From assembly GCA_033344915.1 (NCBI GenBank), contig JAWPML010000001.1:186001-250000 (forward strand): DNA of 64,000 nt, in the 5' to 3' direction. Shown here piece by piece: positions 3,925-34,679 of the stretch. Source of the stretch: Acidimicrobiales bacterium. GTDB taxonomy: Bacteria > Actinomycetota > Acidimicrobiia > Acidimicrobiales > Aldehydirespiratoraceae. Numbering within the stretch: position 1 is the first letter of the stretch; each line of letters opens with the position of its first letter. The notes under the pieces are model-generated. The model did not search any database. It was not told the origin of the DNA and saw only the letters and a list, made by a program, of their open reading frames with translations. A program made the position numbers and the translations under genes.

Positions 3925-4326
3925 ATGAAGGTGTTGGTGGCGACGACCGAGGGGCAGGGCCTCTTCGACGATGACTACTGCTGGACCGTCGAGGGCGAGC
4001 TCGTCTACGTCCAGGCGACGATGTGCTCGAATCCCAGGTGCGGGTGTGACCGCGGCTTCGCAGGCATGAGTAGCAGTCGGGCGACCACGACGGCGAAGGT
4101 GGTCGACCGTCCGGATTTCTCGGCCGCCGACTACCAGCGAGCCCTCGTCGACTCCCTGACTCGAGGCGGCTGGATCGAGGCCGGCGATCAGAGCGACGAA
4201 ACCGTTGGCTTCGTCGCAGAGGTGTTCGCGCTGCTCACATGGATCACGGACCGTTCAGAGGTCGGTTCCCACGTTCGCCGCAACGGTGACGAGGTCTTCT
4301 TCGATCGCCCCGCCGATGCTGCCTAG
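3925..4326 (+). CDS. Small conserved protein resembling the DUF7715 family
   Basis: This 133-residue protein begins MKVLVATTEGQG, continues with CWTVEGELV, and has three cysteines in CSNPRCGCDRGF followed by SSRATTTAKV. This pattern is recalled from an uncharacterised actinobacterial family (DUF7715). The Cys cluster suggests a metal site or disulfides. The open frame extends far upstream, but that part is a shadow of the SLH gene. The ATG at 3925 is chosen because GAGG and GGAG purine runs precede it and homology-like sequence begins there. The function is unknown. Confidence 0.75.
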   Translation: MKVLVATTEGQGLFDDDYCWTVEGELVYVQATMCSNPRCGCDRGFAGMSSSRATTTAKVVDRPDFSAADYQRALVDSLTRGGWIEAGDQSDETVGFVAEVFALLTWITDRSEVGSHVRRNGDEVFFDRPADAA

Positions 4327-4335
4327 CACTTGTGT

Positions 4336-4458
4336 ATGCATATAGGCATGCATCTGGCGCTTGCCGTACGTCGTCTGCGTCAGGAGCGCATGGGGGCGCA
4401 GCTTTCGGCCGATCTGTCCGGCGAGGAGATCGACTGGCTCGATGCTGACCTCGGGTGA
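4336..4458 (+). CDS. Short ORF, possible remnant of a toxin-antitoxin antitoxin
   Basis: This 40-codon frame (inner ATG at 4348) ends LSGEEIDWLDADLG and overlaps the start of the decayed mazF-like frame by 17 nt, which is the usual gene order for an antitoxin preceding MazF. It is preceded by an AT-rich stretch with inverted TGCAT/ATGCA arms (4338-4352) that may have been the operator. It is shorter than normal antitoxins and shows no clear DNA-binding domain, so it may be a surviving C-terminal piece. The call rests mainly on context. Confidence 0.35.
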   Translation: MHIGMHLALAVRRLRQERMGAQLSADLSGEEIDWLDADLG

Positions 4459-4710
4459 CGTCATCGATCTCGACCTCGGCTCACCGACGGGACGAGAGGT
4501 AGGTTCCCGCATCCGGCCATCGTCGTGACCGCCCAGCGGGTGCTCGAGCCGGACGCTGCCAACGGGCTGTCGGCCCGCTCCGCAGCCCAGTGTCAGCACG
4601 TCCGCGCCGTGTCGACCAGCCGGACCGACGAAGTCCGGGGAACGATCGGGGCTGTCGAACTCCGTCAGATCCGGGAGATCATCGGCACACTGCTCGACAT
4701 CGACGCCTGA
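4442..4710 (+). pseudogene. Decayed MazF/PemK-family endoribonuclease toxin
   Basis: Frame 1 from ATG 4442 reads a typical MazF N-terminus (SGDVIDLDLGSPTGREVG) and stops after 28 codons. A different frame from 4504 continues with FPHPAIVVTAQRVL, the next conserved MazF block. A one-base loss near 4503 therefore broke the gene. The frame then jumps directly to EPDAANGL...SAAQCQHVRAVS and ends ELRQIREIIGTLLDI, the standard C-terminal blocks. The central strand carrying the 'VVPLT'-like block, roughly 20-25 residues in intact relatives, is missing. MazF toxins cleave mRNA at short motifs; this copy cannot encode a complete enzyme. An isolated sequencing error would not explain the internal deletion as well. 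Confidence 0.75.
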
Positions 4711-4765
4711 CTCGTTCTTCCCGCCGGTCAGCCATCGACGAGGAGGAGGTGTCCGCCGCCGAAAC

Positions 4766-5164
4766 TCAGTCGAAGACCACTCGCTCGCGAAGCCAATCGG
4801 CGAGCGCTGCTTCGTCGATCTCGCCTGCCGCGACCGCGAGCATGGTCTGCTCGGCGTCGTCGACATCGGGGGGATCAGGATTCCAGTAGCCATCGTTGAG
4901 GTCAATGAACATCACGAGCGCGGCCCATGCAGCACGCTTGTTGCCGTCGGGCAGCGGATGATTGCGGGCAAGCCGCCAGCAGAGAACCGCCGCCTTGTCG
5001 GCGACGTCGGGATAGAAGTCCTCGTCCCCGAAGCCGGCCATGGGCGCGTGGAGCGCCGAGTCGGCGAGGTCGATCCGGCCGGACTTGGCGAGAACCTCAG
5101 CTGACACGCCGGTGACCTGTTCGGAGAGCCACAGATACTCGGCGAGGTCGATGTAGCGGGTCAC
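4766..5164 (-). CDS. doc: Fic/Doc-family toxin
   Basis: This 132-residue protein contains the Fic core HPLPDGNKRAA (residues about 69-79). The Lys after Asn (NKR instead of NGR) is typical of Doc-type members, which phosphorylate elongation factor Tu, rather than of AMP-transferring Fic proteins. Its length matches Doc. A GTG start lies four bases inside the antitoxin stop (GTGA overlap), so translation is coupled to the upstream antitoxin gene. The HxFx position is Leu rather than Phe, a conservative change. No inhibitory helix motif is obvious in the protein itself, so control must come from the antitoxin. Confidence 0.85.
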   Translation of the reverse strand: MTRYIDLAEYLWLSEQVTGVSAEVLAKSGRIDLADSALHAPMAGFGDEDFYPDVADKAAVLCWRLARNHPLPDGNKRAAWAALVMFIDLNDGYWNPDPPDVDDAEQTMLAVAAGEIDEAALADWLRERVVFD

Positions 5165-8978: not shown

Positions 8979-10536
8979 GTTCGGTCCTCGTGAGGTCGTC
9001 GGCGTGGAGCATGGCATCGGCCAACCCCGTGACCAGGCCGGACCGCAGGGCCGGATCCGCCCCGAGGACCGACAGGTTGTCGAGCTCGTCGGGGTCGGCG
9101 TCGAGGTCGTAGAGCATCTCGAACCCGTCGCTGTCGCGGGTGAACCGGTACTGCTCGGTGACGAGGGTGCGGGTCTTGATCGGCACCGGCCGGCTGTCCT
9201 TCGACGACGGGAAGTCGTCCTCCACGAGCACCTGGTCGCGCACCGTCGCCGTCGGGTCGTCGAGCACCGGCACGAGGCTCGTCCCCTGCATGCCCTGCTG
9301 TCCGGCCACGCCACACAGATCGAGGAGCGTGGCCGGCAGGTCGACACCGGCCGCGAGCGACGAAGTGCGTTGTCCGCTCCCGCCGGGGGTCCGCACGACG
9401 AGGGGCACCCGCAGGCAACCCTCGAAGTGCATCGCCAGCTTCATGATGAGGCCGTGGTCGCCCATCATGTCGCCGTGGTCGCTGGTGAAGACGATGATCG
9501 TGTCGTCGAGCGTGCCCAACCGTTCGAGGGTCGCCAGGATGCGGCCGACGCCGTGGTCGATGGCCTCGACCATCCCGTAGGTGGCGGCGATGGCGGCTTG
9601 CGCCTGCTCCGGCGTGGGTCCGAACGGCACGACATAGGCGCCGTGGCTGTTGGCATCGGCGGGGAGGCCCCGGATCATCTCGAGGTGGGCGGGCCAGCCG
9701 TGACCGGGGTCGTCGTAGGTGGTGGGCAGCTCGATATCGGCCGGATCGTGACGGCTGTACCACGGCTCCGGCGGCGCCAGCGGATGGTGCGGGTCCGGGT
9801 AGGAGCACCAGACCATCCACGGTTCGTCGCGGGCCTCGGCCCCCTCGATCACGTCGATGGTGCGCTCGGTGACGAACGACGTGGAGGAGATCTCCTCGGG
9901 GTAGGGCGCGGGGAAGAGCTGCCACCACAGCGGTGACCGGCCGGGAATGTCGGCGGTGGGGTCGAGGCCGCAGCGCAGCAGCTCGTGGGACACACCCTTC
10001 TCGCGAGCCCAGCGATAGTGGTGCGCGCCCACGGTCGCACCGTGGCCGACGCAGAACTCGACGTGGGCGAAGCCGTAGTAGTCCTCGGGGTCCGTCACCT
10101 CGTCGAGCTCGTAGCGCTCGTGGTGTTCGATGGTGTCCCAGCGCTCCCCGAACGGTGAGACCCGGCCGGGAACGGTGCCGAGATCGCGGACCGCATCGCG
10201 GCTCTCGCCGTGCTGGAGATGCCCCTTGCCGACGAGGGCCGTGTGCCAGCCCTCGTCGCGCAGCCGGGAGACGAACGTGGTGTGGTGGGGTTCGAGCGAA
10301 CGATCGTTGAAGATCACGCCGTGGGCCGACGGCATGAGGCCCGTCATGATCGTGGACCGGTTGGGCATGCAGACGGGGTTGTTGACGAAGGCCCGGTCGA
10401 ACACCGTGCCCTCGGCCGCGATGCGGTCGATGTTGGGGGTGCGCACCACGGGGTTGCCGGCGAAGCCGACGTGGTCGGCCCGGAGCTGATCGCAGATCAC
10501 GAAGAGCACGTTGGGTCTGGTCGGCTTCGGGTCCAT
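8965..10536 (-). CDS. Type I sulfatase (alkaline-phosphatase superfamily)
   Basis: The 523-residue protein has the formylglycine signature CMPNRST with Cys56 as the residue to be oxidised, and the N-terminal metal-binding DQLRADHVG. The second metal block, TSDHGDMMGDHGL, lies around residue 350. No signal peptide is present, so it is cytoplasmic, unlike many glycan sulfatases. It needs a formylglycine-generating enzyme encoded elsewhere. It heads away from the dioxygenase cluster with no gap to the FAD monooxygenase upstream (15 nt), which suggests that it removes sulfate from a sulfated aromatic before ring oxidation. A phosphonate-monoester hydrolase activity is the main alternative. Confidence 0.87.
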   Translation of the reverse strand: MDPKPTRPNVLFVICDQLRADHVGFAGNPVVRTPNIDRIAAEGTVFDRAFVNNPVCMPNRSTIMTGLMPSAHGVIFNDRSLEPHHTTFVSRLRDEGWHTALVGKGHLQHGESRDAVRDLGTVPGRVSPFGERWDTIEHHERYELDEVTDPEDYYGFAHVEFCVGHGATVGAHHYRWAREKGVSHELLRCGLDPTADIPGRSPLWWQLFPAPYPEEISSTSFVTERTIDVIEGAEARDEPWMVWCSYPDPHHPLAPPEPWYSRHDPADIELPTTYDDPGHGWPAHLEMIRGLPADANSHGAYVVPFGPTPEQAQAAIAATYGMVEAIDHGVGRILATLERLGTLDDTIIVFTSDHGDMMGDHGLIMKLAMHFEGCLRVPLVVRTPGGSGQRTSSLAAGVDLPATLLDLCGVAGQQGMQGTSLVPVLDDPTATVRDQVLVEDDFPSSKDSRPVPIKTRTLVTEQYRFTRDSDGFEMLYDLDADPDELDNLSVLGADPALRSGLVTGLADAMLHADDLTRTEPVSR

Positions 10537-29315: not shown

Positions 29316-31565
29316 TCAGACGGCGATGAACTCGGCGAGGGCGCTGTGGTCCTCCGCGAGCAGCGGGGCGACGTCCTCCTGGCTGACCTCGGCGACGATG
29401 ACCTCGCCGACCTCGTCGGTGACGTTGCCGAAGATGCCGTTGTTCCGCATGCCCTCGGCCTGCTTGAGGTTGTCGGCCGTGGGGCTGAGGAAGTGGATCG
29501 CCGCGATCTTGTAGCGATGGATCAGGAACAGGTGCATCAGGGTCATCAGCCGCTTGCGGCGCATCTCCTGGCGATAGTTGTTCTGGTCCCGCACCAGCAG
29601 GATCGGCCGGTTCCGCCGGTCGTGGATCACCGAGAACACGACATTGGCGTAGGTCTCGTCGTCCGCGCCGTTGATCTGGAGCTCGAGGATCTCCGAGCCC
29701 GGCGTGTGCGGTCGCAGCTGCACCGAGAGAGGACCGTCGATCCCGTGCACGCTCACCCATTCGGTGAGCCACTCCTCGAGCAGTCGGGGCGGCACCTCGG
29801 TCTGCACGAGGTGCTGGAACTGGGTGGAGCCCTTGCCCATCGCCTTGGTGGTGGCCGTGCGGCCGGAGGAGCCCATGAGCGCGGCGTCGAGGCGAGGCCC
29901 GCCGACCAGGGTCTGCGGGGTCGAGTAGGGCGACTCCACCAGGCGGAACTTCCGCTGGAGGCGGGCCAGTGCGAGCATCCCGTCCTCCTGGAGCGACGCG
30001 GAGAACTCCTCGCTGGCCAGGCCGTCGATCTGGTGGCCGCCATAGGTGATGAAGTTGAAGACGAAGCCGAGCTTGCCGATCTCGGCCGGGAAGTCCCGCA
30101 TCTCCTCGTCGGTCATGCCGGTGGTGTCCCAGTTGAACGACGGCGAGAGGTTGTACGCCATCATCTTGTCCGGGTAGACGGCCTTGATTGCCTCGGCGAA
30201 CACCCTGGCGTCCTCGAGGTCAGCGGTCTTGGTCTCCATCCAGATGATGTCGCAGAACGGAGCCACCGCGAGCGACTTGGCGATGGCGAACGGGATGCCA
30301 CCGCGGATCTGGTAGTAGCCCTCCGGGGTCTTGGCGAGACGGCCGTCCCAGTGGACCTCCAGCCCCATCTCGTCGGCCTTGGCCTCGGCTTCGTGCCACG
30401 ACGCCCGCTCGGAGAAGACGGCCCATTCCTCCTGGGTCATCGGGAGCTCGGCGCCCTCCTCGGAGCGGAAGGCCATCGCCTCGGCCACGGCCTCGCCGTA
30501 GGTCATCAGGCCGGCCGCCGACTGCCACGCGTCCACGAAGGCGTTGCCGACGGTGTCGAGGGCCTGCTCGGCGGTGATGGTGCCGGCGTTGGCCGCCGCC
30601 GCGGCGTCGGCGATGTCGGCCGTGAGGCCCCGCGACTCCAGCCACGCCATCGCGTCGGCCTTCTGGTCGTCGGGGATGTTGTAGAGGAGGTGGCCGTTGA
30701 GGTCGGTGACGCCGGCGTCGTGGAGGCTCTCCATGATCGCCAGGAAGACGTTCTTGTAGCTCGGCACATCGAGCTTGGTGGCGCCGAGAATGAAGGCCTG
30801 GTCGCGCTCGTCACCCGAGCCGTCGAGCAGGGTCGCCGCCTCGGCGTCCGTGCGGGCGACGATGATGCCGCCGACGCCCATGATGTCGAGCTGGAAACGG
30901 GCTGCGTTGAGGCGCTTGATCTGCTCGTCGACCGGCACGAGCACCTTGCCGCCCTGGTGACCGCACTTCTTCACGCCGGGCTTCTGATCCTCGATGTGGT
31001 AGCCGGGCACGCCGACTTCCACGAAGCGGCGCACGAGATTGCGCACATGGGCGTCGCCGCCGTGGCCGGTGTCGGCATCGGCGATGATGAACGGCAGGAA
31101 GTCGACCTCGGGCGTGTTCTCCCGCTCCTCGTCGGTCATCCGGCTGCGGGCGAAGCGCTGGTTCTTGTCCGCTGCGAGCAGGGCCCGCACGATCGGGGCC
31201 GCCTCGTCGGGCACCGCGCTCAGCGGGTAGCTGGCGAGGTCGGCTCCCGGGTCCTCCGACATCGAACCCTTGGCCGACGTGGCCCAGCCGCCCAGGTAGA
31301 TGCCCTCGATGCCGGATCGCTTCATGGCGACGGCCTGACCGGGCGAGTACGGGCCGTAGGTGGTGATGCTCTTGCCCTGGGAACGAAGCTCGCGCAGCCG
31401 GGCGTGGAATCGCTCGGCGGCGACGCGGGCCACGCTGTAGTCGTGCTCGATGGTGCCTCGCTGCTCCACGACCTGACGGGCGGTGAAGAGTCGGGTGATC
31501 TCGGAGAATCGGTCGGACGCAAACCACGCCTCGGTTGCTTCGACTTCGGAATCGAGAAATGCCAT
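29316..31565 (-). CDS. aceA: Isocitrate lyase, large AceA2-type
   Basis: 749 residues, the length of the mycobacterial AceA2 form rather than the 430-residue AceA. The catalytic signature KKCGH is at 199-203 with Cys201, and the substrate/Mg block ADADTGHGG is at 162-170. The enzyme splits isocitrate into glyoxylate and succinate, the first step of the glyoxylate shunt used for growth on acetate or fatty acids. ATG 31565 gives [15 protein letters not shown], while the upstream extension is unsupported. It is monocistronic; malate synthase is not in the window. Confidence 0.95.
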
Positions 31566-31663
31566 GGATCTGCCTCTTGGGTGCGGGGGCCAGCGAGGGG
31601 AAAGGTACGCCAGCGGGCGGGCCGGTGTCGCCTCGGACATCATGCCTCTCGTAGTCTCCCCGC

Positions 31664-33181
31664 GTGGACGTGCCGGAGATCCGATTCGCCGAAGCCCGTG
31701 GCGCTCGCCTCGCCTATCAGACGTGGGGCGACGGCTCCGAGCCCGTGCTCGGCGTCCCGCCGCTCGCCCAGAACATCGAGCATGCGTGGGAGCTACCGAT
31801 GCTGCGGTCGATGTTCGAGCAGCTCGGCTCGTTCTCCCGCTACGCCCATTTCGACAAGCGCGGCACCGGGAGCAGTGACCGCCACGTGGAGGTGCCCGGG
31901 CTCGACGAACGGGTCGAGGACCTGCGCGCCGTCATGGACGCCGTCGGGTTCGAGAGCGCTCACCTCTTCGGGGTGTCCGACGGTGGCTCGATGGCGATCA
32001 TGTTCGCGGCCACCTACCCGGAACGGGTCCGGTCGCTCGTGCTGCACGGCACCGGCCCGTCACTCACCCCGGCGGATGTGACCGACGAGGAGCTCGAGGC
32101 CCGTCGGGGTCTCGCTGCGATGGTGGCCGACCTCTGGGGCACGCCCGACTCGCTCGTCACGTCGATCTTCGCGCCGAGCATGGCCGATGACGCCGAGTAC
32201 CAGCGTTGGCACCAGCACTACGAACGGATGTCCGCGGATCGGGCGGCGTTGCGGGATCTCCTCGACCTCGGGCTCGACGTGGACGTGCGCGACGTGCTGC
32301 CCACCCTCGACGTGCCGACCCTCGTGATGCACAACACCGGCGACCCGCTCATCGACGTGTCGCTCGGCCGCGAGCTCGCCGCCTCGATCCCCGGCGCGAC
32401 CCTGATCGAGCACGACATCAACGACCACTTCAACTATCTGCACCCGGACGCCTGGATACCGGACATGGAACGCTTCATCACCGGTCGGGTGACGGAGCGG
32501 CCCGTGCAGTCGGCCCCGACCACCGCCCGCATCATCACTCTCGGGCGCTTCGCCGTGGAGATCGACGGCGAGGAGGTCGCGGCGTCGGACTGGGGCTCCC
32601 GCAAGGCCCGTCTTCTCTGTATGCGCCTCGTTGCCGCTCGCGGTTGGCCGATCACCCGCGAGGCGCTGTTCGACATGCTCTGGCCCGACGAGTCGGACAT
32701 GCGCCGACTCGGCGCCCGCCTCTCGGTGCAGCTCTCCGCCGTTCGGCGCGTACTGGGCGGGGGAGTGATCGCCGACCGCCGCACGGTCGGGCTCGACCTC
32801 CACCAGGTGTCCGTCGACGTCGAGGAGCTTCTCACCGCCGACGACCCGGACGCCGTCGTCGACGCCTATGCCGGCGAGTTCCTTCCCGCCGAGCACGACC
32901 AGGCGTGGACCGCCGGCGTCCGTGACGAGGCGCGACTGCGGTTCGTCACCGCCGCGCCGGAGGCCATCGCCCGCGCCATCACCGCCGACGACCCGGATCG
33001 GGCCGTCAGCGTCGCCCGGCGCGTGGTCGATGCCGACCCCTACGACGTGGCCGCTCACGAGCAGTTGATCACCACGCTCGAAACCGTCGGTCTGGACGGC
33101 GAGGCTCGCCGCGCCCACGCCGCCTACGTCGCGGCCATGGCCGAACTCGACATCGAGGTTGCGCCCTACCCGAGCGCCTGA
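31664..33181 (+). CDS. Alpha/beta-hydrolase fused to a SARP/BTAD-type DNA-binding domain
   Basis: Residues 1-270 form an alpha/beta-hydrolase with nucleophile Ser105 in GVSDG, acid Asp in NTGDPL (about 228) and His in NDHFNY (about 255). Residues about 290-390 form a winged helix of the OmpR/SARP type ([11 protein letters not shown], then [15 protein letters not shown]), followed by a BTAD helical domain (DAYAGEFLP...[12 protein letters not shown]). The protein can therefore be read as a one-component regulator in which a hydrolase-like domain senses or consumes a small ester or lactone. The start is GTG 31664. It is divergent from isocitrate lyase across a 98-nt spacer. Confidence 0.88.
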
Positions 33182-33228
33182 CCGGCGGCCGAAAGGGTTT
33201 CGAAAGGGTCGTCCGGCACCGTCCGGAC

Positions 33229-34134
33229 ATGCGATCCACCAACCGACCCACGTTCTTTCGGACCCGCCTCGTCGCCCTCGTGGCAATCGCCTCGGTGCTG
33301 GCGGCCGCGTGCGGCGACGACGCCGATCTGACCGTCGAGGCCGAGTCGCCTCCCACCACGGTCACCACCGAGGCCGCGCCGCCTGCGCCCGTCGCGCCGC
33401 CGGTCGTGCCCATCGTCGTGGCCGACTATCTCATCGACGGCCTGCCGTTCCCCGTGCCGCCCGGTGCGGTCACCCTCGAGCTGACGAACAACGGTGAGGA
33501 CTTCCACCATCTCCAGCTCTGGCAGGTCGATGACGCCGACGCGGCCGCCGAGGCGATCCAGGCCGGTGACCTCAGCAGCCTTCAGGGCGGCGTCGCGATC
33601 GGTGGGGTCGGCGCCATCGAGGGTCTCGGCACGATCGGTCAGGTGTCGACCGTCCTCGACCCCGGTGAGTACGTGCTGTTCTGCCTCATCCACACCCCGG
33701 CCGGCGCGCACAACGAGCTGGGCATGGTCGCCCGCCTCGATGTCGCCGGCGAGCCGATCGCCACCGATCTCCCCGAGACGGCCCACGAGCTCTTGATCTC
33801 GCCCTACGGCTTCCAACTTCCACAGGACTGGGACGGACGCGCGCCGCTCACCGTCGTGAATGCCCTCGAATGGGCGGCCGACGCGGAGTTCCTCCGCCTC
33901 GCCGACGGCGCGACCCGCGACGACTTCCTCGCCTTCATGGACGGCTCCCGGCCCGGCCCGCCTCCCTTCACCGTCGCCGGCGGTGTCGCCGGGCTCGGCG
34001 CCAACCGCACCGCCGTCGTCCTCGATCCCCTCGATCCGGGCGACTACCTCGTCGTGTCCTTCTCGCCCGATCCGACCGCCGACATGGCACCCCAGTTCTC
34101 CACCGGCCTGCTCGCCGAGCTGGCCATCCGGTGA
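33229..34134 (+). CDS. Cupredoxin-like lipoprotein
   Basis: 301 residues. Lipobox LAAAC (Cys28) and a Pro/Thr linker are followed by a beta-sandwich with FHHLQLW (His pair, residues about 90) and FCLIHTPAGAHNELGM (about 155-170), giving the His/Cys/His/Met order of a type 1 copper site. A second, similar beta domain without these ligands follows (about 190-300). It may carry electrons or store copper at the membrane surface. The spacing between Cys and Met is longer than in plastocyanin, so copper binding needs proof. It lies 47 nt after the hydrolase-BTAD gene. Confidence 0.72.
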   Translation: MRSTNRPTFFRTRLVALVAIASVLAAACGDDADLTVEAESPPTTVTTEAAPPAPVAPPVVPIVVADYLIDGLPFPVPPGAVTLELTNNGEDFHHLQLWQVDDADAAAEAIQAGDLSSLQGGVAIGGVGAIEGLGTIGQVSTVLDPGEYVLFCLIHTPAGAHNELGMVARLDVAGEPIATDLPETAHELLISPYGFQLPQDWDGRAPLTVVNALEWAADAEFLRLADGATRDDFLAFMDGSRPGPPPFTVAGGVAGLGANRTAVVLDPLDPGDYLVVSFSPDPTADMAPQFSTGLLAELAIR

Positions 34135-34193: not shown

Positions 34194-34679
34194 ATGACCC
34201 TCGACACCCCCCAGGTGATCACCCGGGATGCCGGCGATCACTTCCACTTCCTGAACCAGCTCGCTGTCAACAAGGTGGCCGGCGACGACAGCGGCACCAT
34301 GACCGTCGTCGAGTTCTACTCGCCCGCCGGGTTCGCCCCGCCGGTGCACTCCCACCGCTACGAGGACGAGCTCGTCGTCATGCTCGACGGCGAGATCGAC
34401 TTCCTCGTCGGCGACGAACGCACCACCGCCCGCACCGGTGAGCTCGCCTACCTGCCCCACGGCGTGCCTCACTCGTTCGTCGTGCAATCCGACCATGCCC
34501 GCTATCTGTCGATCACCACGGCGCGCAGTCGGGTCCCCGAGTTCGACGCGTTCATCGCCGACATGGGTAGCCCGGCGCCCACGGCCGAGCTCCCCGAGGA
34601 GGCACCCATCGACGGCGCGCTCGTCGCCGACGTCGCCCGCAGCCACGACATCGACATCCTCGGCCCGCCGCCCGCGTGA
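34194..34679 (+). CDS. Single-domain cupin
   Basis: 161 residues with both cupin motifs: PVHSHRYEDELVVMLDGEID (His/His/Glu) and LPHGVPHSFVV (His). Such small cupins bind Fe or Mn and act as dioxygenases, isomerases or sensors; the substrate is unknown. ATG 34194 is fixed by AAGGAG five bases upstream. It follows the cupredoxin-like gene and probably shares its transcript. It ends 8 nt before the convergent GNAT gene. Confidence 0.85.
   Translation: MTLDTPQVITRDAGDHFHFLNQLAVNKVAGDDSGTMTVVEFYSPAGFAPPVHSHRYEDELVVMLDGEIDFLVGDERTTARTGELAYLPHGVPHSFVVQSDHARYLSITTARSRVPEFDAFIADMGSPAPTAELPEEAPIDGALVADVARSHDIDILGPPPA

Follow-up and report, generated by a model that had tools for sequence, protein, structure and literature searches.

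The 505-aa protein encoded in the window, i.e., the whole 64,000-nt stretch of an Acidimicrobiales genome analyzed here, is most probably a one-component activator that uses an alpha/beta-hydrolase as ligand sensor and is dedicated to the adjacent lipoprotein-cupin operon. The computational analysis established the fusion of the hydrolase to a SARP-type half, the conservation of this fusion, an operator of defined geometry, and the linkage of that operator to both regulator and target. We propose that a LipJ-type alpha/beta-hydrolase module senses the ligand, with the C-terminal SARP winged helix and BTAD as output: the SARP half would bind a tandem pair of heptamers with an 11-bp period immediately 5' of the neighbouring operon and, once bound, would recruit RNA polymerase to a weak -10 element, whereby a lipoprotein and a quercetinase-like cupin would be switched on, probably from a leaderless mRNA. 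Activation rather than repression is what we infer from the SARP precedent and the weak -10 element; the role of the hydrolase half as sensor is suggested by domain logic, and the signal would be an ester- or lactone-like small molecule that is bound or turned over by the hydrolase. That the protein is a one-component regulator, as the original prediction had it, is strongly supported by its fusion in every intact complete orthologue, by the SARP-type operator and by the linkage to a target operon.

The fusion gene comprises the following features:
31664-33181, + strand: hydrolase-SARP fusion gene, an open ORF with GTG start, 505 aa
31664-32488, + strand: alpha/beta-hydrolase module, predicted sensor, residues 1-275 (Pfam Abhydrolase_1, LipJ NCBIfam model, esterase fold match)
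31976-31978, + strand: codon of Ser105, predicted nucleophile in the motif GVSDGG, invariant across full-length orthologues
32342-32344, + strand: codon of Asp227, predicted catalytic acid, D in most orthologues
32426-32428, + strand: codon of His255, predicted catalytic base, invariant across full-length orthologues
32525-32779, + strand: winged-helix DNA-binding domain, residues 288-372 (Trans_reg_C in orthologues, EmbR/AfsR profile, model)
32816-33160, + strand: BTAD, residues 385-499 (PF03704; EmbR/AfsR profile)

The predicted fusion of a hydrolase to a SARP/BTAD half is confirmed by this single ORF. Pfam recognized Abhydrolase_1 (E 1e-15) and, above its cut-off, BTAD (E 8e-5) in the window protein; the winged helix gave no Pfam match in the window protein taken alone. 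Among 35 orthologues, however, Trans_reg_C was detected in 26 and BTAD in 29, and the C-terminal half, searched as a profile, matched EmbR (1.2e-7) and AfsR (3e-5) in the PDB. This half was examined by sequence profile because the structure search with the full model was swamped by the hydrolase half. The AlphaFold2 model (mean pLDDT 91) consists of the hydrolase, a short disordered linker (approximately residues 281-285), the winged helix and the all-helical BTAD; since its pTM is only 0.65, the mutual placement of the two halves is uncertain. Model, Pfam matches in orthologues and profile all place the BTAD directly after the winged helix, and both the alpha/beta-hydrolase fold and a Ser-Asp-His triad are present: Ser105 had been named correctly, and the remaining triad members are Asp227 and His255. 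Separate translation of the two domains was also considered, and one continuous frame was found in the intact complete orthologues, with L082 (stop or frameshift) and contig-truncated copies as the exceptions.

The fusion occurs as one reading frame in approximately 45 further genomes, mostly of Acidimicrobiia, plus other Actinomycetota. An order-level search among 198 genomes detected 10 orthologues besides the window's own, all from other families and one of them contig-truncated, and a scan of named genomes, partly the same ones, yielded about 40 loci, for the most part from Acidimicrobiia, together with MAGs of the Nitriliruptoraceae and two Ornithinimicrobium. Ornithinimicrobium sediminis is a named strain in which the system is present. 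In a sample of the phylum, 11 of 396 genomes carried the fusion, other classes among them. No relative was found in the viral collection, and plasmids gave two distant matches only, both to the SARP half.

Elsewhere, the same hydrolase module is found attached to class III cyclases, to BTAD-cyclase or winged helix-cyclase combinations, or to LuxR domains, which occur at either of its ends, and the window genome encodes a hydrolase-cyclase of its own (L002). In the tree of hydrolase modules, all 43 SARP fusions lie on one side of a branch with SH-aLRT 99, beside the cyclase fusions; judged from this tree, the hydrolase-SARP fusion arose once, among LipJ-type hydrolase-cyclase proteins. The proteins of L029, L034, L025, L030, L033 and L037 combine the module with BTAD-cyclase, winged helix-cyclase or LuxR, and some of them have lost the serine. 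Given these varied outputs, and since the triad is kept in the SARP fusions whereas 9 of about 32 cyclase/LuxR fusions have lost the nucleophile serine, the module is best read as a portable sensor that retains its triad when attached to SARP. The repeated joining to signalling outputs also makes it distinctly unlikely that the hydrolase is a scavenging enzyme, fused fortuitously and without regulatory part, even if its triad, invariant in the fusions, is enzyme-like.

A stronger case can be made that the sensor half is also a working enzyme, signal turnover being coupled to binding and DNA binding or serving to end the signal, to which we assign somewhat less than an even chance. Every full-length SARP fusion retains Ser105 and His255, and Asp227 is nearly invariant: most orthologues have D here, and a few have D-E displaced by a single position. 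Moreover, purifying selection on the fusion protein is strong and greater on the hydrolase half (omega 0.035) than on the linker and SARP half (0.13), as determined against the 92%-identical relative L047, and the nearest folds are active esterases and lactonases. The invariant triad argues that hydrolase chemistry matters; however, conservation does not prove catalysis, and in L169 (G364:C18, approximately 3990-5060, minus strand) some 155 hydrolase residues including Asp and His, with Ser kept, are lost in frame while SARP half, operator and cupin are intact. This natural deletion speaks against a working enzyme and argues that DNA recognition would not require the hydrolase chemistry. For the plant receptors D14 and KAI2, a coupling of binding to turnover has been argued, as it would be for a working enzyme here. 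A further, rather doubtful extension is that the fusion corresponds, as a bacterial DNA-binding protein, to the strigolactone receptors of plants: a diffusible ester or lactone would be bound and turned over by the hydrolase half, and this catalytic cycle would itself determine whether the SARP half binds DNA.

The proposed activator with a hydrolase sensor is assigned to the following predicted operator and target genes:
33191-33197 and 33202-33208, + strand: predicted SARP operator, two GAAAGGG heptamers with 11-bp period, unique in the genome and conserved in position
33217-33222, + strand: CACCGT, predicted as a weak -10 element and separated by 8 bp from the 3' heptamer, conserved as CANNNT
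33229-34134, + strand: cupredoxin-like lipoprotein (by homology), 301 aa, predicted to lead the target operon, its start codon 6 nt past the -10 element
34194-34679, + strand: cupin, 161 aa, predicted target (Cupin_2 in Pfam, match to YxaG)

The repeated element was first noticed in the gap between regulator and partner gene. It reads GAAAGGG TTTC GAAAGGG TCGTCCGG CACCGT CCGGAC ATG (33191-33231), i.e., GAAAGGG-N4-GAAAGGG-N8-CACCGT-N6-ATG, directly upstream of the lipoprotein-cupin operon. Across 36 loci, the repeats C-N2-AAGG-N-T and the downstream CANNNT (A 27/36, T 28/36) keep their spacing. The start codon follows CANNNT by only about 6 nt in these loci, which suggests that the target transcripts are probably leaderless. 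In published SARP promoters the direct repeats are spaced at 11 or 22 bp, the 3' repeat lying 8 bp from the -10 element, which is a suboptimal CACTGT at AfsR's own target (PMC10936776); the rule of 11-bp repeats with the 3' repeat 8 bp before a suboptimal -10 was also reported elsewhere (PMC10972967). The window site has the same arrangement, namely tandem direct repeats at 11 bp and 8 bp to the -10 element. A translation signal, as could be surmised from the resemblance of GAAAGG to the Shine-Dalgarno sequence AAGGAG, can hardly account for repeats that are centred approximately 30 nt before the start codon, are doubled at an exact 11-bp period and also precede genes with a ribosome-binding site of their own, e.g., that for the secreted DUF protein.

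In genome-wide pattern searches allowing up to 3 mismatches over 20 fixed positions, with the reversed pattern as control, the 4.48-Mb genome gave no match besides the window operator (reversed control 0); within the window there was one match, with none expected from shuffles. The site lies about 38 nt before the start of the cupin (or lipoprotein) gene in nearly all orthologous loci, rearranged gene orders included, and travels with the cupin where that gene precedes the regulator or is transcribed divergently from it. With leave-one-out matrices, it ranked first within its own locus in 34 of 36 cases, and the two exceptions were outranked solely by a second site, beside the divergent lipoprotein gene (L060) or the secreted-DUF gene (L064). 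In all five genomes outside the matrix derivation (L164, L167-L170) the cupin is adjacent and preceded by the site, which had the best score in approximately 10 kb in L167, L169 and L170 and the second best in L164 and L168, where the best site precedes a secreted-protein gene. In L063, a second operator-like site (9493-9518, + strand) faces the gene of a small secreted Cys-containing protein, a possible further target. L052 (1762-5415) shows an apparent tandem duplication: ahead of the cupin, regulator-like 3' ends occur twice in succession, followed by operator-like sites.

Among the 198 genomes, the exact site was present in 6 of 11 with the regulator vs. 5 of 187 without it (p 2e-6) and the cupin in 10 of 11 vs. 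3 of 187 (p 2e-13), p-values that are only a rough guide because the genomes are related by descent; the reversed site pattern stayed at background level. No operator site was found in the three genomes with cupin and without regulator. In two of these (L150 in G099 and L151 in G058, the latter also with the lipoprotein) a LuxR-type regulator is encoded divergently from the cupin, which in terms of gene order is a natural swap of controller. The distant orthologue of G140 has neither cupin nor site, and in L069 the site is present and the cupin absent. Because the genome of the window encodes eight other BTAD proteins, it is conceivable that the operator serves a different SARP, the hydrolase-SARP protein then acting elsewhere. 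This is highly unlikely, however, as the site tracks this very regulator, is absent beside the cupin in regulator-less genomes and exists as a single copy in the genome.

The gene order in the window is regulator, lipoprotein, cupin; that the latter two follow the regulator had been noted, and they are moreover conserved as predicted targets. Clustering of flanking genes identified one constant neighbour, a cupin of approximately 165 aa, and a profile search over 45 loci detected it in 36; of the nine that remain, six end at a contig edge, L080 has one flank only, and L069 and G140 are truly without a nearby cupin. The cupin gene may follow the regulator gene, precede it on the same strand or be divergent from it. 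In many loci it is accompanied by the cupredoxin-like lipoprotein, which in Ornithinimicrobium and relatives is replaced or joined by a secreted protein (DUF) of about 175 aa. In L048 (3696-3979), the remains of a duplicated cupin carry a degraded operator of their own. The closest PDB match of the cupin is the quercetin 2,3-dioxygenase YxaG (E 2e-15), and its metal-ligand pattern H52, H54, E59 and H93 is invariant. The window lipoprotein is homologous to lipoproteins of approximately 170 aa beside other orthologues and at 301 aa has an extra C-terminal region; auracyanin A is the best match of the lipoprotein profile (8e-6), with C, H and M conserved in the short homologues, and the structure model of the window lipoprotein was too poor for use (pLDDT 57).

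On the other side of the regulator, the minus-strand isocitrate lyase noted in the original prediction is indeed present (ORF 29316-31643, 775 aa; likely start at the internal MAFLDSEV, approximately 31565, about 98 bp away from the regulator gene), but its proximity is incidental: of the 44 orthologous loci, just that of the closest relative has it, about 1.1 kb off, and it was rejected as a functional partner.

The fold, the SARP half, the operator type and the hydrolase-cyclase relatives are of already known kinds. No description of a hydrolase-SARP protein with C-terminal SARP half, of its operator or of its target operon was found in the open-access literature, from which subscription papers may differ. 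An uncharacterised regulator family of Actinomycetota gains a concrete and cheaply testable circuit, with the protein, the operator to the base and the target genes. Because the LipJ-type module would be a sensor portable across cyclase, LuxR and SARP outputs, a ligand found here via promoter read-out may also help to explain mycobacterial hydrolase-cyclases.

As in AfsR, EmbR and ActII-ORF4 of the SARP family, the winged helix of the fusion is followed by a BTAD, and the tandem heptamers 11 bp apart and 8 bp from a weak -10 element recur at the window operator. The described SARP classes (small, medium, large and SARP-LAL) have an N-terminal DNA-binding domain, the N-terminal SARP part being combined with NB-ARC, TPR or AAA or with nothing (PMC10972967), whereas in the fusion the SARP half occupies residues 288-499. 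The predicted target cupin shares the cupin family and the metal-ligand pattern with quercetin 2,3-dioxygenase (YxaG/QueD). The hydrolase half is homologous to the N-terminal module of LipJ, the lipase/adenylate cyclase Rv1900c of Mycobacterium tuberculosis, whose NCBIfam model is the closest to it (2e-34), albeit below cut-off with 118 bits vs. 800 required; LipJ has a class III cyclase as output, whereas the window protein is without cyclase domain. Furthermore, the signalling hydrolases D14, KAI2 and RsbQ use the same fold as a small-molecule receptor with the triad kept; they are without a DNA-binding domain, unlike the fusion, and are structurally no closer to it than ordinary esterases, with Z of approximately 27, listed but not at the top of the structure search, as compared to approximately 30 for esterases.
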